DNA of 64,000 nt from Rhizobium sp. RU36D (GTDB lineage: Bacteria; Pseudomonadota; Alphaproteobacteria; Rhizobiales; Rhizobiaceae): NCBI RefSeq assembly GCF_900176345.1, contig NZ_FWXU01000016.1, forward strand, positions 62,001 through 126,000, in the 5' to 3' direction. The translations under genes and the position numbers were made by a program. The notes under the pieces are model-generated. The model was not told where the DNA came from. It searched no databases and worked only from the letters and a program-made list of their open reading frames with translations. Numbering within the stretch: position 1 is the stretch's first letter; the number at the start of each line of letters is the position of its first letter. This document shows positions 5,765-61,127 of the stretch, piece after piece.

Positions 5765-6205
5765 TCAGAAATGCTCGCCGGAGCGGAAGGGGCCGACGCG
5801 GATGCCGGCGGCGACGAGGTAGGCGGTGGACCATCCGATCAGGAGGAAGCCGTTGACGCCCTGCAGGGCCGATAGCATGCGCCAGTCCGGATCGGCGGTG
5901 ATGTCGCCGAAGCCGACGGTGGCAAAGGTGGTCGTGGAAAAGTAGAGCGCGGTCGGGAAGTCTGCGACGACGCGGAGCAGGTCGTAGCAGGCGGCCCATA
6001 GCCAGACCTCGGCGGTGAGGACGGCAAAAATGCCGATGACAACGCTGTTCATGGCGATCACGCGGCTGCGATGGCCGTCGATGCGCAAAGCTCCCGTGAT
6101 CCAGTTCATCGCATGGGTCACCGCCATCAGCCCGAAGGTGTGGATGACCACGGTGATGGAAATCATCAGCGTGCCGACTGCGAGGTTCAGCATCAGGTTC
6201 GTCAT
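5765..6205 (-). CDS. Two-TM potassium channel-like protein
   Basis: 146-residue inner-membrane protein with the potassium-channel selectivity filter TVGFGD at residues 96-101, preceded by the pore helix FPTALYFSTTTFA. Hydrophobic segments around 5-32 and 48-72 precede the pore, and one around 108-130 follows it. No cytoplasmic RCK/TrkA domain is attached, so gating is not evident. The start at 6205 was preferred over 6247 because GGGAG lies seven bases before it. Its stop is about 40 bases before the RNA-ligase-like gene on the same strand; the two may share a transcript, with no obvious functional link. Confidence 0.8.
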   Translation of the reverse strand: MTNLMLNLAVGTLMISITVVIHTFGLMAVTHAMNWITGALRIDGHRSRVIAMNSVVIGIFAVLTAEVWLWAACYDLLRVVADFPTALYFSTTTFATVGFGDITADPDWRMLSALQGVNGFLLIGWSTAYLVAAGIRVGPFRSGEHF

Positions 6206-6290
6206 GGGGTCTCCCAATCGTGCGCCTGACCATTTTGGCGGGAGCATCCGGCTTGTCCATGATCCAGGACAAATCGCCCGGACACTCGCA

Positions 6291-6725
6291 TCACGTCTCA
6301 GGCCAAGTGTTTCGCAAGTCCTTGCGCACGACGAATTTAAGGCCTGACCAGGTCTCGTCCACGGCGCAGACCTTCACGTCGACAAGGCCTGTTGGCAGGA
6401 AGATCTCCCGCAGCACATCCTCCGTGATGCTGGTCGGCACTTTCGATGCCCTTTTCGGCCAGGAAATCCAGATCATGCCGGCAGGCGCCACCAAGGCCAG
6501 GAGACGCGGCATCATGGTCTCGAGCGATCCGCGCCCCGTCTCGAAGACGTGGATATAGTCGAGGCGGGCGCCTGGCGTGCCGACCGGCCACTCCGTCAAC
6601 ACCTCGGCGAGCCCCTCGACGGCTTTCAGACCGGCGAGATGATCCGGCAGGCCGATGAACAAGACCCGCATTCCGGCCTTCAGGCCAAGTTTGCGGTCGA
6701 GCGGGGTGCCGGAATATCCGCTCAT
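6291..6725 (-). CDS. DUF3052-like protein
   Basis: 144-residue soluble protein. The opening SGYSGTPLDRKLGLKAGMRV and the segment MIWISWPKRASKV followed by ITEDVLREIFLPTGLVDVKV match what I recall of the DUF3052 family, a small uncharacterised family with a methyltransferase-like Rossmann half-fold. No catalytic residues are known. It starts 7 bases after guaD ends, in the same direction, so it is probably the last gene of the puuD-guaD transcript. Whether it has any part in purine breakdown is unknown. Confidence 0.7.
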   Translation of the reverse strand: MSGYSGTPLDRKLGLKAGMRVLFIGLPDHLAGLKAVEGLAEVLTEWPVGTPGARLDYIHVFETGRGSLETMMPRLLALVAPAGMIWISWPKRASKVPTSITEDVLREIFLPTGLVDVKVCAVDETWSGLKFVVRKDLRNTWPET

Positions 6726-6732
6726 ATCAGCC

Positions 6733-8043
6733 TCACATCGCCTGTGGTTTCATCGCCTTGCCGGCCACATAGGTCTCCACCACGGAGCGATCGTCGCCGA
6801 GCGTCTGAAGCAGGAAGAGTTCCTCGCCCAAGGTTTTCACCGTTTCCATGCGCAGTCGCATGGCGGGCGTTGCGGTAGCATCGAGCACGACCAGGTCGGC
6901 GTCCGTGCCCGGTTCCAGCGTGCCGATCCTGTCTGCAAGGGACAGGGCCTCGGCGTTGCCGAGTGTCATGTGATACCAACTTTCCAGCGGGTTCAGCCTC
7001 TCGCCCAGCAATTGCTGGATCTTGTAGGCCTCGTCCATGGTCTTCAGCATGGAATAGCTGGAACCGCCGCCGACATCGGTAGCAACGGCGATGCGAACAG
7101 GCTTTTCCCGGCGCTTGAAGGCCTTCAGCGGAAACAGGCCGGAGCCGAGGAAGAGGTTCGAGGTCGGGCAGTGAATGGCGATGCCGCCGGCTTCGCTGAT
7201 TGCATCCAGTTCCCGGTCGCTGAGGTGGATCGCATGACCCAGCAGGGTTTTAGGCCCGAGCAGGCCATAATGGGCGTAGATGTCGGTATAGTCCTTGGCG
7301 TCGGGATAGAGCGAGCAGGTATAGCTGATCTCGTCCTGGTTTTCCGACAGGTGTGTCTGGATATGCAGGTCCGGGAATTCGCGGGCCAGCGCCTGGGCGG
7401 CCTCCATCTGCTGCGGCGTCGATGTGATGGCAAAGCGCGGCGTGATGGCCACGTGGTTGCGACCCGTGCCGTGCCACTGCTGGATCACGGCCCTTGTCTC
7501 GTCATAGCCGAGCGCGGCCGTATCCAGCAGGCCCTGGGGCGCGTTTCGGTCCATCATCACCTTGCCGGCGATCATGCGGGTGCCGCGCTTCAGGCTTTCG
7601 GCAAAGAAGGCGTCGGCTGAGGTCTTGTGCACCGAGCAATAGGCAACCGCCGTCGTCGTGCCGTTGCGCAGCAATTCATCGAAGAACAGGCCTGCGATGC
7701 GCTGCGCATGGTCGGTCTCGACAAAGCGGCATTCCTCCGGGAAGGTATAGGTGTTCAGCCATTCCAGGAGGTTGGCGGCATAGGAGGCGATCACCTGCAT
7801 CTGCGGGAAATGCACGTGGCAATCGATCAGGCCGGGCAGGATGAGATACGGGCGGTGGTCGATCTCCGTGACATCGGCGGGGGCAGCCGCCTTGATCTCG
7901 GCATAGGAGCCGACGGCCCGGATGATCCCATCCTCGACCAGCAGCCCGCCGTCGTCTTCATAGAGATAGCTGCCCGTATCGGAGGCATTGTCCGGCGCGC
8001 GGCGAAAGCTCATCAGCCGCCCGCGGAGAAGCGTGGCGCTCAT
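6733..8043 (-). CDS. guaD: Guanine deaminase
   Basis: 436-residue amidohydrolase that deaminates guanine to xanthine. Metal-site motifs are DCHVHFPQMQ, HLSENQDEI, LLGHAIHLSDRELD and ATDVGGGSSYSML, in the order and spacing of GuaD. The family length is about 430-450. The ATG at 8043 is used because it overlaps the puuD stop (ATGA), indicating translational coupling; the longer open frame upstream is an overlap with puuD in another frame. Together with xdhABC it supplies urate for puuD. The enzyme is cytoplasmic. Confidence 0.94.
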   Translation of the reverse strand: MSATLLRGRLMSFRRAPDNASDTGSYLYEDDGGLLVEDGIIRAVGSYAEIKAAAPADVTEIDHRPYLILPGLIDCHVHFPQMQVIASYAANLLEWLNTYTFPEECRFVETDHAQRIAGLFFDELLRNGTTTAVAYCSVHKTSADAFFAESLKRGTRMIAGKVMMDRNAPQGLLDTAALGYDETRAVIQQWHGTGRNHVAITPRFAITSTPQQMEAAQALAREFPDLHIQTHLSENQDEISYTCSLYPDAKDYTDIYAHYGLLGPKTLLGHAIHLSDRELDAISEAGGIAIHCPTSNLFLGSGLFPLKAFKRREKPVRIAVATDVGGGSSYSMLKTMDEAYKIQQLLGERLNPLESWYHMTLGNAEALSLADRIGTLEPGTDADLVVLDATATPAMRLRMETVKTLGEELFLLQTLGDDRSVVETYVAGKAMKPQAM

Positions 8044-11918: not shown

Positions 11919-12133
11919 TACCCCCCTCTGTCCTGCCGGACATCTCCCCCTCAAGGGGGGAGATCGGATTGCCGCACCGCCTCTGCCACACATAGATGTC
12001 TTTCAAGCCGAAGCGAGGCTGCGCAGGAGACACGGTTTCAGGGTAGGCGAGCGCTATCGGCTGAGTCGATCTCCCCCCTTGGGGGGGAGATGTCCGCGTT
12101 TCGATGTAATCGAAAGAGGACAGAGGGGGGTAT
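11919..12133. repeat. Rhizobial mosaic repeat with inverted ends, copy 1
   Basis: The left end reads TACCCCCCTCTGTCCTGCCG and continues with a CTCCCCCTCAAGGGGGGAG hairpin to 11970. The right end (12068-12133) carries the same parts inverted and ends AGGACAGAGGGGGGTA. In the right half the palindrome is interrupted by about 15 unrelated bases before AGGACAG. It sits upstream of xdhC, between it and the DUF559 gene, and has no coding capacity. The layout resembles RIME-type intergenic elements of rhizobia. Confidence 0.85.
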
Positions 12134-49593: not shown

Positions 49594-50640
49594 TTACCGG
49601 CGGCGATGGCGAGTCAGCCCCGCCACGACGTCCTGCGCCGAGATGGAGCCGATGACTGAGCCGTTGTCAACAACGCCGATATTGCCCGGCTGGCGCGAAA
49701 GCGCATCAAGGATTTCGATGAGCGGCGTTTCCGGCTTTGCGGTTCCCGTCACGCCGACCTGTGTGCCATCCGTCTCCACGCCGTCCCGCATCACGTCGCG
49801 GGCCGTCAGCATGTTGATCGGATTCATGTTCTGCACGAAATCCGCAACATATTGGTTGGTCGGGTTCTGGACGATCTCCTGCGGCGTGCCGCACTGGATG
49901 ATCCGGCCGCCTTCCATAATGGCGATGCGGTTGCCGATGCGGAAGGCCTCGTCCAGGTCGTGGCTGACGAAGAGGATCGTCTTCTTCAGGCGCGCCTGGA
50001 ATTCCAGCAACTCATCCTGCAATCGAGTGCGGATCAGCGGATCGAGCGCGGAGAAGGGCTCGTCCATCAACAGGATCGGCGCGCCGGTGGCAAAGGCACG
50101 GGCAAGGCCGACGCGCTGCTGCATGCCGCCCGAAAGTTCGCCCACGCGACGGTCCGCCCATTTGGCCAGATTCACCAGTTCGAGTTGCTGGGAGACTCTC
50201 TGCTTGCGCTCGGCATCCGGCACGCCGGCGAGTTCCAGACCGAAGCCGACATTTTCCGCTACCGTGCGCCAGGGCAGCAGCGCGAATTGCTGGAACACCA
50301 TGGAGACGGTGTGCATGCGCAGGTCCCGCAGCGCCTTGGCGCTGGCCTTGTAGGGGTCGACGCTGCCGGTTGCGGTATTGACGCTGACATTGCCGCGCAC
50401 GACCGGTGCGAGGCCGTTTACGGCCCGCAGCAGGGTCGACTTGCCGGAGCCAGAGAGGCCCATCAGCACCAGGATCTCGCCTTCCTTGACCGCCAGCGAT
50501 GCACCGGCGACGCCGAGCACCAGGCCTGTCTCGGCGCTGATCTCATCGCGCGTTCTGCCCTGGTCGACCATGGCCAGCGCCTTGTCGGGGTGGTCACCGA
50601 AGATGATGTCGACATTTCCGAAGATGACTGCGTCGGTCAT
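49594..50640 (-). CDS. choV: Choline ABC transporter ATP-binding protein
   Basis: 348-residue ATPase of a choline importer (ChoV type). Walker A GLSGSGKSTLLRAVNG, signature LSGGMQQRVGLARAFATGAP, Walker B ILLMDEPFSALDPL and the switch histidine FVSHDLDEA are all intact. The C-terminal part from RDVMRDGVETDG is a CBS-like regulatory domain of the ProV/OpuA branch. It overlaps choW by four bases, so both are coupled. Drives uptake of choline, which rhizobia convert to the osmoprotectant glycine betaine. Confidence 0.93.
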   Translation of the reverse strand: MTDAVIFGNVDIIFGDHPDKALAMVDQGRTRDEISAETGLVLGVAGASLAVKEGEILVLMGLSGSGKSTLLRAVNGLAPVVRGNVSVNTATGSVDPYKASAKALRDLRMHTVSMVFQQFALLPWRTVAENVGFGLELAGVPDAERKQRVSQQLELVNLAKWADRRVGELSGGMQQRVGLARAFATGAPILLMDEPFSALDPLIRTRLQDELLEFQARLKKTILFVSHDLDEAFRIGNRIAIMEGGRIIQCGTPQEIVQNPTNQYVADFVQNMNPINMLTARDVMRDGVETDGTQVGVTGTAKPETPLIEILDALSRQPGNIGVVDNGSVIGSISAQDVVAGLTRHRRR

Positions 50641-51500
50641 GCCCCGTCCTCCGCATTCTCAGTTCTAAACATCCGGTCGAGGATGATGGCGAGGATGACG
50701 ATGCAAAGGCCCGCCTCGAAACCGCGGGCAATGTTGACGGTGTTGAGTGCGCGCACGACGGGCACGCCGAGGCCGCTGGCGCCGACAAGCGCGGCGATGA
50801 CGACCATCGACAGCGACAGCATGATGGTCTGGGTGAGTCCGGCCATGATCTGCGGCATGGCGAAGGGAAGCTCGACCTTGCGCAGCACCTGGGTGGGGGT
50901 GGCGCCGAAGGCGACCGCAGCCTCCACCAGGGAGGGCGGTGTGGAGACGACGCCGAGCCGGGTCATGCGGATCGGCGCGGGAATGGCGAAGATGACGGTG
51001 GCGATGAGGCCGGGGACCATGCCGAGACCGAACAGGATGAGCGCCGGGATCAGGTAGACGAAGGTCGGAATGGTCTGCATCAGGTCGAGCGCGGGCCGCA
51101 TGAAGGCATAGAACCAGGGACGGCGGGCGGCAGCAATGCCGAGAGGCACGCCGATGAGCATGCTCACGCCGGCCGATGCCAGCACCAAGGCGAGCGTCTC
51201 CGTCGTTTCCTTCCAGTAGCCCTGGTTATAGATCAGGAGCAGCCCAAGACAGGTGAAGAGTGCGGCCCCGACGGACCGGCGCAGCCACCAGGAAAGACCG
51301 GTGAACAGCGCGATCAGCACGAAGGCGTTCGGCCATTGCAGGACGAAAAGCAGCGCGTCGATGGAGATCGAAAGTATGGAAGACAGCCAGTCGAAAAACC
51401 AGTCGGCATTCGCCGTCAGCCAATCGACAAAGGATTTTGCCCATATGCCGATCTTCAGCTTGCCGCTGGAGTCGATGAGCCATTCGGGGAGGAAATTCAC
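50637..51500 (-). CDS. choW: Choline ABC transporter permease
   Basis: 287-residue inner-membrane permease of the ProW/ChoW type. An N-terminal amphipathic part (PEWLIDSSGKLKIG) and six to seven helices; the conserved cytoplasmic loop with EAAVAFGATPTQVLRKVELP is the ATPase-contact (EAA) motif. It pairs with choV and choX. Start at 51500; choX ends 79 bases earlier in the transcript. Transports choline from the binding protein. Confidence 0.93.
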   Translation of the reverse strand: MNFLPEWLIDSSGKLKIGIWAKSFVDWLTANADWFFDWLSSILSISIDALLFVLQWPNAFVLIALFTGLSWWLRRSVGAALFTCLGLLLIYNQGYWKETTETLALVLASAGVSMLIGVPLGIAAARRPWFYAFMRPALDLMQTIPTFVYLIPALILFGLGMVPGLIATVIFAIPAPIRMTRLGVVSTPPSLVEAAVAFGATPTQVLRKVELPFAMPQIMAGLTQTIMLSLSMVVIAALVGASGLGVPVVRALNTVNIARGFEAGLCIVILAIILDRMFRTENAEDGA

Positions 51501-51578
51501 GTCCTGACACCTGCCTGATCAATAAAGGATATGGCGGAAATGAATGCGGGCCGGAGTGACCGGCCCGCTGGCATCAGA

Positions 51579-52535
51579 CTACAGTCCGAGGGCTGCCTTG
51601 ACAGCCTCGAGGCCCGGTTTCCCGTCCTTGGTGGTGACACCGGCAACCCAGGGCTCAACAGCCGCGCCATTGGCCTTCAGCCAGTCGGTTGCTGCCTTTT
51701 CCGGATCCTCGCCATCGTTGAGGATCTTGCCCATGATCTCGTTCTCCATGTCGAGCGAGAACTTCAGGTTGCTGATGAACTTGCCGGCATTGGGGCATTC
51801 GGCGACATAGCCGGCGCGGGTGTTGGTGTAGACGGTGGCGCCGCCGAAGTTCGGGCCGAAGGTGGAATCGCCGCCGGTGAGGTAGGTCAGCTTGAAGGTG
51901 GAGTTCATCGGGTGCGGCGCCCAGCCGAGGAAGACGACCGGCTTGCCATCCTTTTCAGCGCGGGCAACCTGCGCCAGCATGCCCTGCTCGGAGGATTCGA
52001 CCACTTCGAGGCCGCCCATGCCCATCTCGTTCTTCTCGATCAGGGTCATGACGAGGCGGTTGCCGTCATTGCCCGGCTCGATGCCGTAGATCTTTCCATC
52101 AAGCGCATCCTTGTGCTTGCCGATGTCGGAAAAATCCTTGATGCCGAGTTCAGCACCCTTGGCATTGGTAGCGAGCGTGTACTTCGCGCCTTCCAGGTTC
52201 GCGCCGAGCGATTCGACGGTCTTGTCGTCGAGATAAGGCTTCACGTCCTTTTCCTGGGCCGGCATCCAGTTGCCGAGGAAGACGTCAATGTCCTTGTTCT
52301 TCAGGGACTGATAGGTCACCGGGACCGACAGGACCGTGACTTCCGGCTCGTAGCCGAGGGCCTTAAGAACGACGGAAGCGGTTGCCGTCGTGGCGGTGAT
52401 GTCCGTCCAGCCGACATCGGAGAACCGCACCTTGGAGCAGCTTTCCGGTTCAGCGGCAGCGGCCGGCGTCAGGCCGAGCGCCATGATCGACACGGTAGCG
52501 GCGAGCGCAGTGCGATAGAGGTTGGATTTGGTCAT
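51579..52535 (-). CDS. choX: Choline-binding periplasmic protein
   Basis: 318-residue periplasmic binding protein with signal peptide (MTKSNLYRTALAATVSIMAL, cleaved after AAA). The fold-II pattern SCSKVRFSDVGWTDITATTA, LGNWMPAQEKDVKPYLDD and VVFLGWAPHPMN contains the aromatic residues and acidic positions used by ChoX to hold the quaternary amine. GGGAG precedes the ATG at 52535. First gene of choXWV; the divergent cytochrome gene starts 279 bases away. Confidence 0.93.
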   Translation of the reverse strand: MTKSNLYRTALAATVSIMALGLTPAAAAEPESCSKVRFSDVGWTDITATTATASVVLKALGYEPEVTVLSVPVTYQSLKNKDIDVFLGNWMPAQEKDVKPYLDDKTVESLGANLEGAKYTLATNAKGAELGIKDFSDIGKHKDALDGKIYGIEPGNDGNRLVMTLIEKNEMGMGGLEVVESSEQGMLAQVARAEKDGKPVVFLGWAPHPMNSTFKLTYLTGGDSTFGPNFGGATVYTNTRAGYVAECPNAGKFISNLKFSLDMENEIMGKILNDGEDPEKAATDWLKANGAAVEPWVAGVTTKDGKPGLEAVKAALGL

Positions 52536-52814
52536 GTGTATGCTCCCGGTTTTTTTGTAATGTTCCCAAGTCAACAGTTATTAAACCACATTTGCAAGCG
52601 TGCCCTGCGCGTTTGCGGCGAATGCACCTCCCTGTTTGCGACTCCTGCATTTTTATTTCGCGTCGCAGCACGGGGTGAAAACGGATCTGGCGGTCAGCGA
52701 ATTGACAAACATCAAGATCGCGACGTTCTGCACGATGGCAGAGCCCGGGGCAGGGGATTACACTTCCAAGATGGCGGCCGGGGAGAAGCGGCCTGCCGAT
52801 CAAAGGAAAGGTCC

Positions 52815-53273: not shown

Positions 53274-53444
53274 GGCAACGCCTGCTTGCAACGTTCGATC
53301 CCGTCTCCATATAAATGCTGAGTTTTTTCCGCTTGACCCGGCGGCGACCGTTTTCACGTTGCGGTTTTCGTATAAGGTCGCGGTCGAAATGCCTCCCGGT
53401 CTGCCGGGGCTGCTTGACGACAATTGCAAAGGGAGATCACCGGC

Positions 53445-54533
53445 ATGGCCACGCTTCAATCCTTCGACAGCGAAATCGAGAAGACCCGCGGCATCGTCAA
53501 CGAGATGCGCGGCAAGATGGAACAGTCAGGCGCGGTGCTGGACCAGTTCGCCAAGGCCGACACCAAGCTGGGCGACGCCAATTTCGACATCGAAAATGCC
53601 CGCATCCAGGATGTCATCAAGCAGCAGAAGGTGATGGAGGCGAATATCGCCGACCTTATCATCGGGCTCGAGGATGCGACCAACGTGTTCGGCTCCGAAT
53701 TCGAGAGCATGAAGAGCTATTCCGGCTATGAAAAATTCATCGGCATCTTCTCCAAGCAGAAGGCGCAGCGCATGCGCACCGAGCGTGTGCGCAACATGTC
53801 GCTGGCCGGCAACCTGCAGGAGCTCTTGGCCAAGTCCGACAGCATCGTCGGCATCCTGAAGGAGCAGCGCACGGTTCTCGACCAGCGCTACAAGAGCTCC
53901 GAACAGAGCCTCATCCAGGTCATCGAGCGCCGCAAGGGCACGGTGGCGAGCCTGGAAGCGACGCAGAAGCGCATTGAGGAATTGAACCCGATGCTGCTCG
54001 ATATCGAGAACAAGATCGCGGCCTCCACCGACCAGACGGCCCGCACCGAGCTGGAGGGCGAGCGTTCCAGGCTCGCGACGGAATACAACCAGGCCCAGGC
54101 CAAGGAACAGGAGCTTCTGGCCGAGAGCCAGACGCTGGAGCGCTACACCTCGATGTTCCAGACCTTCGTCGACAGCCTGAACAACCAGATCGCGGCGCAG
54201 AACACGCTGATCAACAAGCTGACCATCGATACCGAGCAGCGCATCGTGCTCTACAAGGCGCTCGAGGACTCGTTGAAGACGGCCGCCCAGCAGGATGTCG
54301 CCCACAAGATCAACACGCTGGGCAGCCAGGTCGATACGGCCGCAGAGGAAACCATGGCCGGCATCGGCTCGGCCGCGCAGCGCCATATCGGCGACCTGCT
54401 GGAACTGCACGAGAAGAACATGCTCGCGACCCAGGACATCCAGCGCCGCAAGAAGCTCGCCGACGACGCCTTCGCCCGGCGTTTCCAGACGGTGCTGGAG
54501 AAGCACAATTCGGCCAATTACGTGAAGCCGTGA
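53445..54533 (+). CDS. Long coiled-coil protein, remotely TelA-like
   Basis: 362-residue soluble, helical protein with almost continuous coiled coil. No signal peptide or membrane segment is seen. Its layout (a basic patch IFSKQKAQRMRTERVRNMSL, a long middle, and the end YKALEDSLKTAAQQDVAH and NTLGSQVDTAAEETM) recalls the TelA/KlaA toxic-anion-resistance proteins, but I cannot call the family with confidence. GGGAG precedes the ATG at 53445. It is the first gene of a group that continues with an AAA+ ATPase; a composite mosaic repeat separates it from the next gene. Confidence 0.72.
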   Translation: MATLQSFDSEIEKTRGIVNEMRGKMEQSGAVLDQFAKADTKLGDANFDIENARIQDVIKQQKVMEANIADLIIGLEDATNVFGSEFESMKSYSGYEKFIGIFSKQKAQRMRTERVRNMSLAGNLQELLAKSDSIVGILKEQRTVLDQRYKSSEQSLIQVIERRKGTVASLEATQKRIEELNPMLLDIENKIAASTDQTARTELEGERSRLATEYNQAQAKEQELLAESQTLERYTSMFQTFVDSLNNQIAAQNTLINKLTIDTEQRIVLYKALEDSLKTAAQQDVAHKINTLGSQVDTAAEETMAGIGSAAQRHIGDLLELHEKNMLATQDIQRRKKLADDAFARRFQTVLEKHNSANYVKP

Positions 54534-54575
54534 GTGGCGGTTGGCTATCTATGAGCCGTGTATCGGTGAGCAAGG

Positions 54576-54832
54576 TACCCCCCTCTGCCCTGCCGGGCAT
54601 CTCCCCCTCAAGGGGGGAGATCGGCAAGGTGCCCCGCCCGCATTCCCTCGCCACGGTTGATGTTTTGCAAGACGTCGCCGCGGGTCGCTCTCCCCCCTTG
54701 AGGGGGAGATGTGCGGCAGCACAGAGGGGGGTATGGCCAATCTCCACTTCAGAGGTTGATGTTTGGCAAGACGCTGCCGCGATTCGATCTCCCCCCTTGA
54801 GGGGGAGATGCCCGGCAGGGCAGAGGGGGGTA
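54576..54832. repeat. Composite rhizobial mosaic repeat with internal tandem copy
   Basis: Starts TACCCCCCTCTGCCCTGCCG at 54576; outward ends GGGGGGTA occur at 54732 and 54832. The stretch GTTGATGTTTTGCAAGACG at about 54657 recurs as GTTGATGTTTGGCAAGACG near 54757, so a unit of about 100 bases is duplicated. The last end lies against an ATG (54832) in the frame of the next gene. Confidence 0.83.
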
Positions 54833-54894
54833 TGTCATCGCGCAACGTCAGACGGCGAGGTAGCCGAAACTTCATCGCTTTGTGGGATGCCTTC

Positions 54895-56043
54895 ATGCTG
54901 AACGCCACCGAAGGGCCGGTGTCCCAATATTTCCGCTCCATTCAGGCGGCGCTGGGCGGGTTGGAGATCTATCTCTCCAATCCCGACGTCAAGCTTGGCG
55001 GCAGCATGGCGGCTGGCGGTATTCTGCTGCGCTATCTCGACCGGCTGAAGAACTCGTTTTCCTGCTGGCAGAACCGCATCGGATTTACGGAGCAGTTCCG
55101 CATCTCCCGCGCTGAAAGCGGTTTTCCTGTCTTCCAGAACGTGCTGGAACTGGAAAACGACCGCGGCAGCGCCGAAAAGCGGCTGGCCGCCATTCCCGAT
55201 GGCGCGGCGATCCGCTCGGAGATGGCCGATTTCATCCTGCGTAACCGGGAGTTCCCGACCGCCTTGCAGACGCAGATGGCCGAGCGGCTTTACCTGGAGC
55301 AGATTGGAAAGGGCGAGATCTTCTCGCCACTGGTGCTGCCCGAAACCATCCATGTGAGCGTGAACGAGAAGTCCGGCCGTCCGCTATGCATCGTCACCTG
55401 GGCGGTGTTCGATGGCGCCAATACCCTGCCGATGGTCTATGTCGCCGGCATCGAGGACAGTTCTGATAACATGACGCGGCTCCTGGTCGGGCGCGACGGC
55501 AAGCTCAATCCTGAGGTCGAGATTCCCTTGCCGGTGGGCGGGCTGCTGAACCCGGAACTCGCCGCCGCCTTCGATGATTTTGTCGGCAAGAACGGGGCCT
55601 ATTCCCTGACGCCGGCGACCATCGCCACCAATATGGACAAGGATTTCCCCACCCTGCATCCCAAGGTGTTGCGCCGCGTCGTGCTGGGACCATTCTATTC
55701 CGCCGGCATTACCGAGAACAACGCGCGTATCAACGAGATACTGTCGCGGGTCCGCAAGCCTGACAATGCCTGGCTCTTGACCTGGACGGTGCAGGAGGTG
55801 TTTTCCAAGGCCGAGCGGCCGGCGGTCAAAGGCTTTTTCTCATCGACACCGGCCATGCAGGAATTCCATATTGAGACCAATGATCTGGAAGCCGCGCGCA
55901 TGGGCGTATCCGCCTATGAAAAGCATGCGCTGGTGCCGCACGATGCCTATCAGGCGCTTTATGCCTCCGGAGAGGCGGCCGCGATCTTCGGCAATTACAA
56001 GGTCCATGTGATCTCAGGAAACAACGTCGTCAGCGAGGTCTAA
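54895..56043 (+). CDS. Unknown protein of the AAA+ gene cluster
   Basis: 382-residue soluble protein, no family known to me. The start is tentative: ATG 54895 is preceded by GTGGGA, while an in-frame ATG at 54832 abuts the mosaic repeat and would add 21 residues. Recognisable blocks are GGLEIYLSNPDVKLGGSMAA and RYLDRLKNSFSCWQNRIGF near the N-terminus; a beta-rich middle (HVSVNEKSGRPLCIVTWAVF); and IEDSSDNMTRLLVG. No catalytic motif or signal peptide is seen. It ends 3 bases before the ATPase gene, so the two are co-translated. Confidence 0.75.
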   Translation: MLNATEGPVSQYFRSIQAALGGLEIYLSNPDVKLGGSMAAGGILLRYLDRLKNSFSCWQNRIGFTEQFRISRAESGFPVFQNVLELENDRGSAEKRLAAIPDGAAIRSEMADFILRNREFPTALQTQMAERLYLEQIGKGEIFSPLVLPETIHVSVNEKSGRPLCIVTWAVFDGANTLPMVYVAGIEDSSDNMTRLLVGRDGKLNPEVEIPLPVGGLLNPELAAAFDDFVGKNGAYSLTPATIATNMDKDFPTLHPKVLRRVVLGPFYSAGITENNARINEILSRVRKPDNAWLLTWTVQEVFSKAERPAVKGFFSSTPAMQEFHIETNDLEAARMGVSAYEKHALVPHDAYQALYASGEAAAIFGNYKVHVISGNNVVSEV

Positions 56044-56046
56044 GCG

Positions 56047-57960
56047 ATGAGCGGATTGAATGCCGGCCTGACCACCATCCACGAGGACGATATTGCCAAG
56101 CATCTGGCGGTGGCGCAGGGGCTGGTGACACGCGTTATCGTGCTCGATCCCGGCGATGGGGCCTCAGGGACCGCGCTTGCCGGAACCGGTCGCCGCTTCG
56201 TCTCGACGGTGTCGACCACGTCCGTCCGGCGCACGCGCGAGGTGGAGCTGGAAAAGACAATCCGTGCGGTGAAGCCCGGCGATCCGCTGCTGTCGCCGCA
56301 GGCGCATACGCTGCTCTATCGCGCGCGGCGGGGCGCGCAGGTGGCGCTTGCCATCGGCGAGGTCTTTGCCCGGCAGAGCGACCTGGAATCGCTGCAGGCG
56401 CGCAATCTGTCGGCGCCGCTGCAGGGGGCTGATGCCGAGCGCTTCAAGGCGCTGCTGTCGGCCTCCGCCTATGTCGCTGCCTTTTCCTTTTGCGCCTATA
56501 TGCTGGCCATGTTGGCCGGCGAGAGCGAGCCGGTTGAGGATGGGCGGGAGCCGGATTACCTGTTCGATACGCCGCAGGATGCGCTGAAAAGCCTGGTCGC
56601 CGGTCTGGATGAGGCCTTGGCGGGTGCACCGGATGAACTCGCGCAGGTGGCCCGCGCCCGTGCCTTCCTTCGGGATGCCGTCGAAGGGCTGATCTCGCGC
56701 AAGGCCCGCTTTACCGGACTTGCAAGTTTCGAAAATGTGCATATCCGCATCGACCAGGACGATTTCTCGCTGGATGGTTTCGATGTTGCGCCCGGCGCCA
56801 AGCGCAAGCCGCTGGTCATGACCTTCAAGAAGCCGGAGGAGATCGTCGGCAACCATATCGCCAAGTATCAGGGCATGAAGCTGGCCAAGATGCTGATGGC
56901 CTATGATTTCGACCGGCAGATGAACCCCTTTGTCGAACTGGGTGGCTTTCTCTTCACCTTCATCGGCGATGGCATGCCGGGCACGGGCAAGACCATCCTG
57001 ATCCAGATGATCGCCGGCCTGCTCAATGATTACTGCCAGGTCGCGGGCTATGCCTTCCACTATGAGAACTTCGGCGTCGACCAGATCTCGTCCTACCAGG
57101 GCAAGTCGGGGCAGAACTGCAAGCAGTTCGTAAACAATGTTACGAACCCGCGCGCGATCGGTTTCGGCACCATTGACGATGTCGACCAGGTGACGGCCAA
57201 GCGCTCCGACGACCGGGCCTCGGCCGGCCAGCATGAAGTGACTGCCGTGCTGATGGAGAGCTTCGCCGGCGCCTCCACCGTCGTGCGCGGCAATGCCACC
57301 TTCGGCATGTTCTCTAACTATCCCGAGAATGTCGATGACGCGCTGCGTCAACGGGCCGGTGCCCGCTGGCTCGTGGACGGGCCGCAGACCGAGGCCGATT
57401 ACATCGACATCTTCGCGCTGCTCATCGGCAAGAACCACAAGATACCGCTCGGCGATCACCAGCTTTACGCCAACCAGGAGATCAAGCGGGCGGTGACGAC
57501 CTCCTATGCCGAGCACTCCCGCCCGAAGGAAGACGGGCTGGTCGCCGTGTGGGATCGATATGAGAAGACAAGGGGCCCCATCAAGTCGCTCGCTGATGTC
57601 GGCGCCTATCTGCACGAGATCAAGCTCGCCGAGCCTAGGTTTACCGGCCGTGCCATCAAGAACATCACCGATGCCGTGAAGATGCGGGCGATGGATGTCG
57701 AGCTGCCGGACGACTGGTTCGCCACGCCAGGCGCCTTCCTGCACAGGAGCTACGACGAAAAGAAAGCGATGATCGAGGAGCTGCGCGGCCCCATCACCAT
57801 GGAGATGATCCTGCAGGAGGTAAACCGCTACGCCGACAGCGAATTCCGCTACGCCGACAAATCTGATGATGCGGCCATCGCCGAGATCATCAGGCGCGAA
57901 AAGCAGCGGGAACGAGCGATTGGCGGGATCGAGGCGCTGAAAAGGGAGGGCAAGTGGTGA
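56047..57960 (+). CDS. AAA+ family ATPase of unknown system
   Basis: 637-residue ATPase. The N-terminal 290 residues are of unknown fold, with a hydrophobic stretch at 138-157 (SASAYVAAFSFCAYMLAMLA). The AAA+ core has Walker A GDGMPGTGKT (residues 307-316), Walker B FGTIDDVDQV (D377-D378) and a sensor-like SNYPENVDDALRQRAGAR with a candidate arginine finger. The C-terminal 100 residues are helical and charged. The single ATPase domain and its context fit a remodelling machine. It starts 3 bases after the unknown gene; a RelE/XRE pair follows. Confidence 0.85.
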   Translation: MSGLNAGLTTIHEDDIAKHLAVAQGLVTRVIVLDPGDGASGTALAGTGRRFVSTVSTTSVRRTREVELEKTIRAVKPGDPLLSPQAHTLLYRARRGAQVALAIGEVFARQSDLESLQARNLSAPLQGADAERFKALLSASAYVAAFSFCAYMLAMLAGESEPVEDGREPDYLFDTPQDALKSLVAGLDEALAGAPDELAQVARARAFLRDAVEGLISRKARFTGLASFENVHIRIDQDDFSLDGFDVAPGAKRKPLVMTFKKPEEIVGNHIAKYQGMKLAKMLMAYDFDRQMNPFVELGGFLFTFIGDGMPGTGKTILIQMIAGLLNDYCQVAGYAFHYENFGVDQISSYQGKSGQNCKQFVNNVTNPRAIGFGTIDDVDQVTAKRSDDRASAGQHEVTAVLMESFAGASTVVRGNATFGMFSNYPENVDDALRQRAGARWLVDGPQTEADYIDIFALLIGKNHKIPLGDHQLYANQEIKRAVTTSYAEHSRPKEDGLVAVWDRYEKTRGPIKSLADVGAYLHEIKLAEPRFTGRAIKNITDAVKMRAMDVELPDDWFATPGAFLHRSYDEKKAMIEELRGPITMEMILQEVNRYADSEFRYADKSDDAAIAEIIRREKQRERAIGGIEALKREGKW

Positions 57961-58036
57961 AGTCTGGATCGGTGTAACTGTTTGTATTCGCTGTCGGCGA
58001 ATTTCTGTTGTCGAGATGCTTGGGGAGCTATAGACT

Positions 58037-58285
58037 GTGAAGCAGATCATCTACAGCAAGCAGGCAGCCCGGACCCTGGCACGGATTCCCGCCAATGACA
58101 GCCAACGTATTCTCAAGAAAGTTCGGCAATATGCTGCAGATCCGAATTCGCAGATCAACAATGTGAAAAAGCTTCAAGATCGGCCCGGCTATCGTCTACG
58201 CGTTGGTGACTGGAGAGTGATCTTCGACGAATATGACAACGTTCTGGATGTCGAAAAGATTGCCAGCCGTGGCAGCGTTTATTAG
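58037..58285 (+). CDS. RelE/ParE-family toxin
   Basis: 82-residue RelE-type toxin: KQIIYSKQAARTLARIPAND, KKVRQYAADPNSQINNVKK and the core RLRVGDWRVIFDEYDNVLDV with the basic residues that contact mRNA. It starts with GTG, preceded by GGGGAG, and lies 12 bases before its antitoxin gene. The toxin-first order and the XRE antitoxin fit the HigBA layout. The pair interrupts the AAA+ cluster. Base composition here looks less GC-rich than in the neighbours. Confidence 0.88.
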   Translation: MKQIIYSKQAARTLARIPANDSQRILKKVRQYAADPNSQINNVKKLQDRPGYRLRVGDWRVIFDEYDNVLDVEKIASRGSVY

Positions 58286-58297
58286 CGAGGCAGGGAT

Positions 58298-58711
58298 ATG
58301 GGAATTGCAACACGTTTCAAGACGCCTAACGGCGAGGACATGGTGGTTCTTTCGCAAGCCGACTACGACGCGCTGGTCGAGGCTGCTGAGATGCTAGAGG
58401 ACGTCGCTGCCTACGATCTTTTCAAGGAGCGGCTCGCGCGGGGCGAGGAGGAGTTCATTCCCGGCGAATTCGTCCATCGAATGGTTGATGGGGAGAGCCC
58501 AGTCAGGGTCTGGCGCGAGTTTCGCGGTTTGTCCGCGAAGGATTTGGCCGCCGCTGCCGGCATCAGCCCCGCCTATCTGTCCGAAATAGAATCCCGCAAG
58601 AAGGAGGGCAGCGTTTCCGTTCTGAAGAAGATCGCGAAGGCGCTCAAGGTCGATATCGAAGACCTGATTGCCTGGGGCGGAGACGAGGCCGAAGCCGGCG
58701 CCGATGTCTAG
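58298..58711 (+). CDS. XRE-family antitoxin (HigA-like)
   Basis: 137-residue protein. The N-terminal part (VVLSQADYDALVEAAEMLED) resembles a Phd-like toxin-binding segment; the C-terminal helix-turn-helix (RGLSAKDLAAAAGISPAYLS, then SEIESRKKEGSVSVLKKIAK) binds DNA. It follows the RelE toxin by 12 bases and a GGCAGGG site precedes its ATG. It would autoregulate the pair. The next gene of the cluster begins 15 bases after its stop, so transcripts may read through. Confidence 0.86.
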   Translation: MGIATRFKTPNGEDMVVLSQADYDALVEAAEMLEDVAAYDLFKERLARGEEEFIPGEFVHRMVDGESPVRVWREFRGLSAKDLAAAAGISPAYLSEIESRKKEGSVSVLKKIAKALKVDIEDLIAWGGDEAEAGADV

Positions 58712-58726
58712 CAGAAGCCTGATTGC

Positions 58727-60025
58727 ATGAACCGCCTCCTCGAAGCCGAGCTCATCTATGGTCGTCTGCTGACGATCGCAGAGCCGCATCTCATTGCCCG
58801 CTACAACAAGGCGCTGACCGGTTTTGGCCTGAAGCCAACGGCGCTTGAGACATTCGATATCGACATGACCGGCTTCTCGCCCGAGATTGCCGCCGAGTTG
58901 AACGACTGGGACTATCTCGACCCGAATAGGGTGAACCGGCGTTTCATCATCATGACCCCGGAGCAGGAGAACCTGCCGGTGGTCCATACAAGCTTTTCCA
59001 ATACCGCCGGGCTGATGCATGAATTCTTCGGCGCCAATGCTCGCGCCATCAATGCCGTCACCATCAAGGATGCGCTGTACGGCGAGATCGAGGACAGCGT
59101 CGCCACCGTCGAAAGCCTTGAGGATCTGCTGTCGATCAACGAGGTACGGTTCCGCGTCCTGTCCGCCGAAGACCTCCTGGGCAAGGCGGCCGAACTGCGG
59201 CAGTTGTCCGACCGGTTGCAGACGGACCCCGATGCCTGGCGGGATGATGCCATGCTGAACCGGATGGTGGAGCTTGCAAAGCTCACCGGTGATATCCGGC
59301 AGAACGTGCTGGTGCCCGACAAGCTCGTCTTCCGCCACGATGCCTTCTGGGCCAACCATTTCGGTGGTGTCTACATCTTCGTCGACGACAAGGCGACGAC
59401 GGTCATCTGCGATCCGAAGGCGCCGGGCTTTCGGCGTTCGCGGCCCTGGCAGGTCAGCTATATCGGCCTCAACGATCCCGCCCGCATTTTCGATTTCCTG
59501 GCCAAGACCGGGCGGATCGAATTGCCGCGAGCAAGCTGGGTGGAGGCTTCGGGCCTTTATGCCCACCGCGCCGACATGGCCATCGCCGCGCTGATGGGGA
59601 AGGCAACGGATATTCCCGATCTGTCCAAGGCCGACAGCGTCTGGATCCAGACCTGGATGCATCGCAACAGTGCTGCGATCACGGCCGACGGAACCTATCC
59701 CTTCCTGCAGGAGATGCTGCGGCTGATCACCAGCCGGGGCAGCATCCGCCTTGAAGACATCGAGCCTGCGCGCCGCTTCCTTCTCATTCGCGCGCGGCCC
59801 GACCATCCCGACCAGTGGCTCACAAACCGGTTGATCGCGCAGTTCAATCCCACGGACTTCGTCTCCCGTTTTATTTTCGACAAGCAGGGCTTTTACGATG
59901 CCTATGAGGCTTTTTCGGAAAGCTACCGGGATTACGTTGTATCGCGGCTGACCAGCACTTATTTGCGTGACAAGAAGATTTTCCGTAAGCGGCTTTACGG
60001 CATAGGAGACGAAGACAATGCTTGA
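58727..60025 (+). CDS. DUF6638-like protein of the AAA+ gene cluster
   Basis: 432-residue soluble protein. I recall the DUF6638 family as matching this layout (RLLEAELIYGRLLTIAEPHLI at the start), but cannot verify it. Later blocks read FRHDAFWANHFGGVYIFVDD and KKIFRKRLYGIGDEDNA at the end. No catalytic motif is visible. It overlaps the next gene by 8 bases, so both are co-translated. Position after the ATPase gene, beyond the inserted toxin-antitoxin pair, suggests it belongs to the same machine. Confidence 0.72.
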   Translation: MNRLLEAELIYGRLLTIAEPHLIARYNKALTGFGLKPTALETFDIDMTGFSPEIAAELNDWDYLDPNRVNRRFIIMTPEQENLPVVHTSFSNTAGLMHEFFGANARAINAVTIKDALYGEIEDSVATVESLEDLLSINEVRFRVLSAEDLLGKAAELRQLSDRLQTDPDAWRDDAMLNRMVELAKLTGDIRQNVLVPDKLVFRHDAFWANHFGGVYIFVDDKATTVICDPKAPGFRRSRPWQVSYIGLNDPARIFDFLAKTGRIELPRASWVEASGLYAHRADMAIAALMGKATDIPDLSKADSVWIQTWMHRNSAAITADGTYPFLQEMLRLITSRGSIRLEDIEPARRFLLIRARPDHPDQWLTNRLIAQFNPTDFVSRFIFDKQGFYDAYEAFSESYRDYVVSRLTSTYLRDKKIFRKRLYGIGDEDNA

Positions 60026-61127
60026 CCCGATCATCGCTTTCTTCGAGCGGGTGTTTCGTGCCATCGGCCGAGGGCTGGGCATGGCCGTCGCCTGGCTGGT
60101 CTGGCCCTTCATGGCCGCCCATGGCTGGTATCAGCGGCGGAACTGGCTGATCAAGGCGCCGATCCTCGTTGTCTTGCTCGTCATTATCGGCTTTTACGGC
60201 CAGTTTTTCTGGCGCACGCAGTTCTGGTATCATTTCGATCCGGAATTCGTGCAGGCCTACAAGTTTTCCGAGCGCACAACGCCGGCGGGCCAGCCGGTTG
60301 CGGCCACGCCTGGCAAGTGCCAGCCGTCCGGCATTGTCTCGGTGGCCGCCGATCTGACGGATGCGAACGTCAACCAGAATATCTGGATTTCGTCGACGCT
60401 GATCTACAAGCTCGGGTTTTTCGGTCTCGACTGGGATCACACGCCGTTCTTCGACAACAAGGCCTCGTTCCAGCGCGGGGTGAACCAGGTGGTCCGCCGC
60501 GTCGGTGTGGAGCTTGCGGACAATTTGGGCCGCGTGCGTGGCACGTCCGGCATCAATAACGACCTGCAGGATGCGCGCGGCAAGATCCAGTATGACGAGT
60601 ATACCTGGTATTTCGGGCTCAATCCCCTGGGCTTCAAGACGCCGACGCCGAGCTTCTATCGCTCCGCCATCACCGGCTGGCAGAAGTTCAACACGGACCT
60701 GGAAAACTGCAACGCGGTGTTCGATGCCCGCGCGGACAATCTGCTGCAACTGATCGACCGCACGGCAAACGACCTTGGAAACACCTCGGATATCCTCCGG
60801 CGCCGGTCGGAAGATTTCAACGCCGGATGGTTCGATACCCGTGCCGATGACCGCTACTGGTTCGCCTATGGCCAGCTCTATGGGCTCTATGCCGTGATGT
60901 CGGCGGCCAAGGCGGATTTCTCTGACGTCATCCGCGAGCGCAACCTCACATCGATCTGGGCGGAAATGGAGCGGCAATTGCAGGCTGCCTTGCGCATTCA
61001 GCCGGCGATCATTTCAAACGGCAGCGAGGATGGCTGGATCATGCCGACGCATCTGGCCACCATGGGCTTTTACATTCTCCGTGTACGCTCCAACTTGGTG
61101 GAACTGCGCGCCGTCCTCGACCGCTGA
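60018..61127 (+). CDS. DUF2333-like membrane-anchored protein
   Basis: 369-residue protein with a membrane anchor near residues 46-65 (KAPILVVLLVIIGFYGQFFW), a weaker hydrophobic segment at 18-34, and a large soluble part, probably periplasmic. The pattern QFWYHFDPEFVQAYKF, SSTLIYKLGFFGLDWDHTPFF and DARGKIQYDEYTWYFGLNP matches what I recall of DUF2333 (uncharacterised). Two cysteines (GKCQPSG and LENCNAVF) could be paired. It is the last gene of the cluster and is followed by a hairpin. Confidence 0.82.
   Translation: MLDPIIAFFERVFRAIGRGLGMAVAWLVWPFMAAHGWYQRRNWLIKAPILVVLLVIIGFYGQFFWRTQFWYHFDPEFVQAYKFSERTTPAGQPVAATPGKCQPSGIVSVAADLTDANVNQNIWISSTLIYKLGFFGLDWDHTPFFDNKASFQRGVNQVVRRVGVELADNLGRVRGTSGINNDLQDARGKIQYDEYTWYFGLNPLGFKTPTPSFYRSAITGWQKFNTDLENCNAVFDARADNLLQLIDRTANDLGNTSDILRRRSEDFNAGWFDTRADDRYWFAYGQLYGLYAVMSAAKADFSDVIRERNLTSIWAEMERQLQAALRIQPAIISNGSEDGWIMPTHLATMGFYILRVRSNLVELRAVLDR

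Follow-up and report, generated by a model that had tools for sequence, protein, structure and literature searches.

Among described systems, the closest to the genes considered here are the classical AAA ATPases (the i-AAA protease, the proteasomal regulatory subunits and TRIP13), which carry a Walker A motif, an aromatic-x-Gly pore loop and the arginines of the second region of homology (SRH), and, by analogy, the NSF/SNARE and Vps4/ESCRT-III systems, in which an AAA ring works on a long helical partner. The present study concerns five co-directional genes in a 64,000-nucleotide stretch of Rhizobium sp. RU36D DNA (contig NZ_FWXU01000016.1, positions 62,001 to 126,000; hereafter, the window): gene 1 (53445..54533; 362 aa, all-helical, coiled-coil), gene 2 (54895..56043; 382 aa), gene 3 (56047..57960; a 637-aa AAA ATPase), gene 4 (58727..60025; 432 aa, DUF6638) and gene 5 (60018..61127; 369 aa, DUF2333), all on the forward strand. 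Genes 1–4 very probably form a genuine four-gene unit, referred to below as the module. We read it tentatively, at not quite an even chance, as a hitherto undescribed AAA+ remodelling machine of Alphaproteobacteria, with an exchangeable partner that would recruit it to the inner membrane.

The coherence of genes 1–4 was followed in three samples. In a class sample of 289 genomes of Alphaproteobacteria, the ATPase was found in seven, and the gene-1 profile picked out the identical seven; the chance that two random sets of 7 of 289 coincide is 3e-14 when relatedness is ignored, and four of these seven genomes come from one family. DUF6638, searched for in 241 genomes of the class, was present in five, all of them ATPase-bearing. 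In a family sample of 151 Rhizobiaceae genomes, the ATPase was found in 90. Among 20 module-bearing loci fetched out of the 89 other matches, genes 1, 2 and 3 were kept together in 20/20, and 19/20 have the whole co-directional series of genes 1–4 and DUF2333 in this order; in the twentieth, gene 4 and DUF2333 are located at another point of the contig. A scan with one genome per species matched at least 591 stretches, at least 495 of which were confirmed for the ATPase, and the best 80 of these, those that most resemble the Aestuariispira protein, were compared as named loci. Gene 3 was present in all 80, gene 2 in 78, gene 4 in 77, gene 1 in 76 and a DUF1523 gene in 75; order and strand of genes 1–4 were kept in 74 of the 80, and in 72 when DUF1523 was included. 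Eight named loci are incomplete, five of them (L069, L075, L081, L089 and L110) apparently because they are cut by contig ends. A lack of co-occurrence in other genomes, named in the preliminary description of the locus as a point that would speak against the cluster, was not what was observed for genes 1–4, given the identical sets of seven and the 74 ordered loci; the fifth gene, at the same time, proved not to be fixed. In the course of this comparison, single TGA codons were seen inside three profile matches, namely that of the ATPase in L161 (genome G674) and those of DUF6638 and gene 1 in genome G179 (L167 and L207); these may be frame ends only.

The identity of the fifth gene depends on the lineage. 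DUF2333 was found in 114 of the 151 Rhizobiaceae genomes, in 89 of them together with the ATPase and in 25 alone; the ATPase occurred alone in one, a fragmented assembly. From the 25 genomes with DUF2333 and no ATPase, 19 module-free stretches were fetched, in 16 of which DUF2333 is directly preceded by choline-type ABC transporter genes, here called choX, choW and choV; these genes lie on the other side in two stretches, and one ends at a contig end. In the window, the corresponding open reading frames (ORFs) occupy 49594..52574 on the reverse strand, and 15 of the 20 Rhizobiaceae loci with the module have choXWV directly before gene 1. Since the same flank occurs with and without the module, the module-free genomes display an empty site. 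The 19 module-free stretches yielded none of genes 2, 3 and 4, and three of these stretches (L187 at 6123-7100, L188 and L197) keep a diverged gene 1, of 23–31% identity, before DUF2333. On a DUF2333 tree of 40 rows, module state has to change 10 times, with at least six of the changes on starred branches; shuffled states gave 13.5 changes, and 25 of 500 shuffles were as low as the observed 10. The block therefore switched state repeatedly, as a whole. DUF2333 is a resident membrane gene that adjoins the module in Rhizobiaceae. Its family label (PF10095, 74.7 bits against a cut-off of 22) and the N-terminal anchor, both already suggested in the preliminary description, were borne out, the latter by one strong hydrophobic stretch at residues 43-61. 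An apparent DUF6638–DUF2333 gene fusion in L060 was rejected, as a stop codon separates the two.

Outside Rhizobiaceae, the membrane gene that follows DUF6638 belongs to DUF1523 (75 of the 80 named loci, as counted above); two examples gave 238.6 and 151.5 bits in Pfam, with hydrophobic stretches at 3-27 and 152-175. A genome-wide search for DUF1523 found it in 15/15 module-bearing genomes outside Rhizobiaceae, which serves as the positive control, and in 0/22 Rhizobiaceae genomes. DUF2333 is present in two of the same 15 genomes, on other contigs. In 64 named loci, a gene for a small two-helix membrane protein is located between DUF6638 and DUF1523.

The ATPase assignment of gene 3 rests on a PF00004 match of 41.4 bits (cut-off 21.2) and on its motifs, namely Walker A at residues 307-316 (GDGMPGTGKT), the pore loop at 349-357 (SYQGKSGQN), Walker B at 375-381 (TIDDVDQ) and the SRH at 422-436 (FSNYPENVDDALRQR). 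The gene is single-copy in the source genome (6.08 Mb, 77 contigs), and the nearest named ATPases among the matches listed are those of Agrobacterium (84%), Allorhizobium (83%) and Rhizobium and Ensifer (both 81%). Conservation was assessed in 102 different ATPases, comprising that of the window, 77 from the 80 named loci and 24 of the 26 loci fetched from the family and class samples; L089, L092 and L110, which are without a clean frame, and L055 were left out, and L012 is identical to L063. Walker A is present in 102/102, the SRH string in 101/102 and the arginine motif that follows it in 101/102; the exact nine-residue pore-loop string was found in 89/102, and four of the other 13 read SYQGKSAQN. 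The Y-Q-G of this loop aligns with the Y-x-G of 5ubv and 6ef2. In these features, gene 3 resembles the classical AAA proteins. It differs from them in that the matches are weak and do not extend beyond the core (profile positions 286-432; E 2.6e-4, the best in PDB, to the i-AAA protease and E 2.9e-3 to a 26S regulatory subunit), with the N-terminal part unmatched, in that no protease domain was found in it, and in that an Asp occupies the position of the catalytic Glu. This position was set by alignment to the i-AAA protease and the 26S regulatory subunit 4 homolog. The Asp-Asp pair of Walker B was observed in 102/102 ATPases (101 by pattern, L094 by eye) and Asp-Glu in 0/102. Walker A is accordingly as intact as had been claimed, whereas the Walker B motif, also called intact in the preliminary description, is altered at its catalytic residue. 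A similar Asp-Asp pair occurs in NSF D2. As judged from the motif, the substitution suggests weak hydrolysis. Neither a MoxR-type AAA family with its von Willebrand A partner nor a VirB4-, VirB11- or VirD4-type (type IV secretion) family was matched at E ≤ 1 among the seven proteins encoded between 53445 and 61127. The earlier claim of a conserved AAA+ set without assigned functions was supported, together with the adjoining membrane protein.

Gene 1 is the best-conserved module member in Rhizobiaceae, with a median of 83% identity to the window over the 20 loci. It matched no Pfam family above cut-off, and a 17-member alignment gave nothing better than E 0.0013; for genes 1, 4 and 5, sequence searches of solved structures gave nothing below E 0.2. 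The AlphaFold2 (AF2) model of gene 1 consists entirely of helices, with a mean predicted local distance difference test (pLDDT) score of 73.8. The top Foldseek matches of this model were chains of alpha-pore-forming toxins, at E ~1e-3 and a query-normalised template modelling (TM) score of at most 0.43; we take this likeness as the generic one of long helices. ESCRT-III and PspA were not among the fold matches listed for gene 1.

For gene 2, no Pfam family was found above cut-off either, and its confident AF2 model was without a clear PDB match. Residues 157-344 follow the order strand-strand-helices-strand-strand, and several different enzymes of the tunnelling fold (T-fold), a group that includes uricase, dihydroneopterin aldolase, GTP cyclohydrolase IB and QueF-like enzymes, are among the weak fold matches; the region may be weakly like this group. 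Gene 4 was confirmed as DUF6638, the label it had been given earlier, by PF20343 (246.4 bits, cut-off 27). A comparison gave no support for a common origin of gene 2 and DUF6638. We also observed that, of 74 DUF6638 proteins encoded alongside DUF1523, 71 end in a GPWG tail, as do those of all 64 loci that have the small membrane gene; this tail is absent in both Halomonas and Aestuariispira, and none was seen in the aligned Rhizobiaceae rows.

The two Halomonas (Gammaproteobacteria) records, L090 and L092, contain genes 1–4 and DUF1523 without the small membrane gene. In the ATPase tree, L090 groups with Leisingera and two other Rhodobacteraceae (100% support in the Shimodaira-Hasegawa-like approximate likelihood ratio test, SH-aLRT), inside Rhodobacterales; this is a quick tree with one Halomonas sequence (L090) and a long-branch warning for Aestuariispira. 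The ATPase was also found in one genome of another class of the phylum, which is probably one of the two Halomonas records. Judging from the tree, the Halomonas copy of the module is a transferred one.

In the proposed machine, gene 3 would form a ring that pulls protein through its YQG loops, and it would do so slowly because Walker B has Asp at the place of the catalytic Glu. The ring would have the long-helix gene 1 as its chief partner or substrate and gene 2 and DUF6638 as adaptors, and the membrane protein would position it at the envelope; the recruiting partner would be DUF2333 in Rhizobiaceae and DUF1523, usually with the small two-helix membrane protein, elsewhere. Such an assembly would link a cytoplasmic coiled coil to the envelope, as had been proposed for the locus; the earlier interpretation, taken as a whole, is partly supported. 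Several observations weigh against the machine as proposed. Three of the named loci depart, or may depart, from the four-gene unit: L068, a 21.9-kb stretch of a metagenome-assembled genome (MAG), has the ATPase alone; L091 is without gene 1 in 8.8 kb upstream and has a run of N inside its gene 2; and L139, an 11-kb MAG contig, is without DUF6638 in 4.7 kb downstream. Gene 1 may have an ATPase-independent role, because three module-free sites keep its diverged copy, and its AF2 model is modest (predicted TM score, pTM, 0.58). The place of DUF2333 in the machine may be merely positional, because 25 genomes of the family sample have it and no ATPase. Finally, the Walker B Asp would also fit an ATPase with next to no hydrolysis. 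This last point leads to the reading of gene 3 as a non-hydrolysing or very slow AAA scaffold, which would make the block a static assembly gated by ATP, not a motor; the replacement of the catalytic Glu throughout the 102 ATPases speaks for it, but Walker A, the pore loop and the SRH are all conserved and a pure scaffold would not need them all; we regard this reading as unlikely. Somewhat more weight, still well on the doubtful side, is given to the possibility that two unrelated neighbours are observed, namely the four-gene module and a resident DUF2333 gene that merely adjoins it in Rhizobiaceae. The ATPase-free genomes with DUF2333, and its position beside choXWV in 16 of the 19 module-free stretches, are what such neighbours would leave. 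Nevertheless, DUF2333 accompanies the ATPase in 89 of 90 ATPase-bearing family genomes, the exception being the fragmented assembly; its gene immediately follows that of DUF6638, in many cases overlapping it or leaving a short gap; and the same slot is held in other lineages by DUF1523, which was not detected where DUF2333 occupies it.

A defence or conflict system, in which the block guards against phages or plasmids, moves by transfer and collects toxin-antitoxin or nuclease-like genes, would be in keeping with the patchy occurrence of the ATPase in Rhizobiaceae (90/151), the six or more module-state changes forced on the DUF2333 tree, the Halomonas copy inside the Rhodobacterales tree, the changing content of the slot that separates the ATPase from DUF6638 (a ParE/RelE pair, PIN, HicB-like, DUF559 and DUF2513) and the weak PADLOC matches of the ATPase to TRIP13 (8e-5) and IetA (0.007). 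We consider it improbable, however, as the module occupies the same choXWV site in 15 of the 20 Rhizobiaceae loci, the commonest slot gene is common to just 10 of 77 named loci, and no nuclease or other effector domain was found in the four core proteins; moreover, PADLOC gave no system-specific match for the core genes, with coiled-coil matches of E 0.02-0.07 for gene 1 and nothing at E ≤ 1 for genes 2, 4 and 5, and PHROGs gave weak ATPase matches only. Far less probable still is a Ter/TelA-type module for tellurite or envelope stress, with gene 1 as a distant TelA. Gene 1 and TelA (PF05816) are both long and helical, and this general likeness is all that favours the idea; no sequence or profile similarity was found between them, and Pfam returned no TelA match for gene 1. 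In hhalign, gene 1 reached 0.2-0.3% probability against TelA, the 0.3% extending over 28 columns, and its diverged copies reached 2.1%; the controls worked, with 100.0% between the rhizobial and other gene 1, 99.9% between gene 1 and its diverged copies and 96.3% between two TelA parts. The remote TelA likeness ascribed to gene 1 in the preliminary description thus fails the profile comparison. Additionally, the source genome contains no TelA gene above cut-off (one sub-cut-off match lies on another contig), and two module-bearing genomes hold a true TelA gene elsewhere. To return to the remodelling machine, its more specific form would be a new class of AAA+ machine, in which a slow ring with the Walker B Asp loads or strips gene 1 at the inner membrane via the T-fold-like gene 2 and DUF6638, and in which the whole membrane receptor was swapped from DUF1523 to DUF2333 once a gene resident on the chromosome of the new host took over; as a whole, this version is rather unlikely.

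As to the layout of the locus, the five co-directional ORFs were found at the coordinates of the preliminary description, and the 3-base gap between genes 2 and 3 and the 8-base overlap of genes 4 and 5 were reproduced in the ORF listing. The ATG starts of genes 1 and 2 used here are those of that description; the listing starts both at an upstream TTG, which gives a longer gene 1 (53424-54533) and a gene 2 that begins at 54763. The tight packing claimed for all five genes did not hold. Genes 1 and 2 are separated by 361 bp (54534..54894), which contain copies of a dispersed palindromic repeat, with 48-nt inverted arms (100% complementary), a 99-nt direct repeat at 82% and the 21-nt core CTCCCCCTCAAGGGGGGAGAT. 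With up to 3 mismatches allowed, this core was matched 10 times in the window (two of the matches overlap) against 0.00 expected, within 54576-54832 and at 11944, 12069, 15135, 40925, 41025 and 44664. Between genes 3 and 4 lie 766 bp, which contain, at 58037-58711, a ParE/RelE-like toxin gene (58037..58285, forward strand; PF05016, 27.6 bits, cut-off 23) and a helix-turn-helix (HTH) antitoxin gene of the Cro/C1 type (58298..58711, forward strand; PF01381, 49.1 bits, cut-off 23). Among the 20 other Rhizobiaceae loci, this pair was found in one (L043, 60%, same slot), and it is best read as an insertion within the module, not a part of it. The slot measures 6 to 1443 bp in 19 Rhizobiaceae loci and 0 to 2386 bp in the named loci. 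The larger slots of L043, L044, L052, L054, L056 and L060 contain a ParE-type pair, PIN, a HicB-like antitoxin, DUF559 (twice) and DUF2513, as if the slot gathered unrelated small genes in the manner of an insertion hot spot. No tRNA or Rfam genes were found in the window, and a scan for promoters and terminators showed no excess (one promoter-like site against 2.2 expected, eight terminator-like sites against 6.3). A link to phospholipid genes, considered because of pssA/pmtA upstream in L009, was dropped, as pmtA was matched in 3 and pssA in 6 of the 80 named loci. Overall, what had been observed earlier at this locus is partly confirmed.

In the literature searched, no description of the four-gene module and no paper on DUF6638 was found; DUF2333 occurs in one paper, which calls it uncharacterised, and DUF1523 in four. 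Two of the four core proteins are without a Pfam family. The S. meliloti gene SMc02733 may belong to the module. The unit is found in rhizobia and in marine roseobacters, with its ATPase confirmed in at least 495 stretches when each species is represented by one genome, and the co-occurrence of its genes, the existence of empty sites and the alternation of two membrane neighbours open the question of its function to direct testing.

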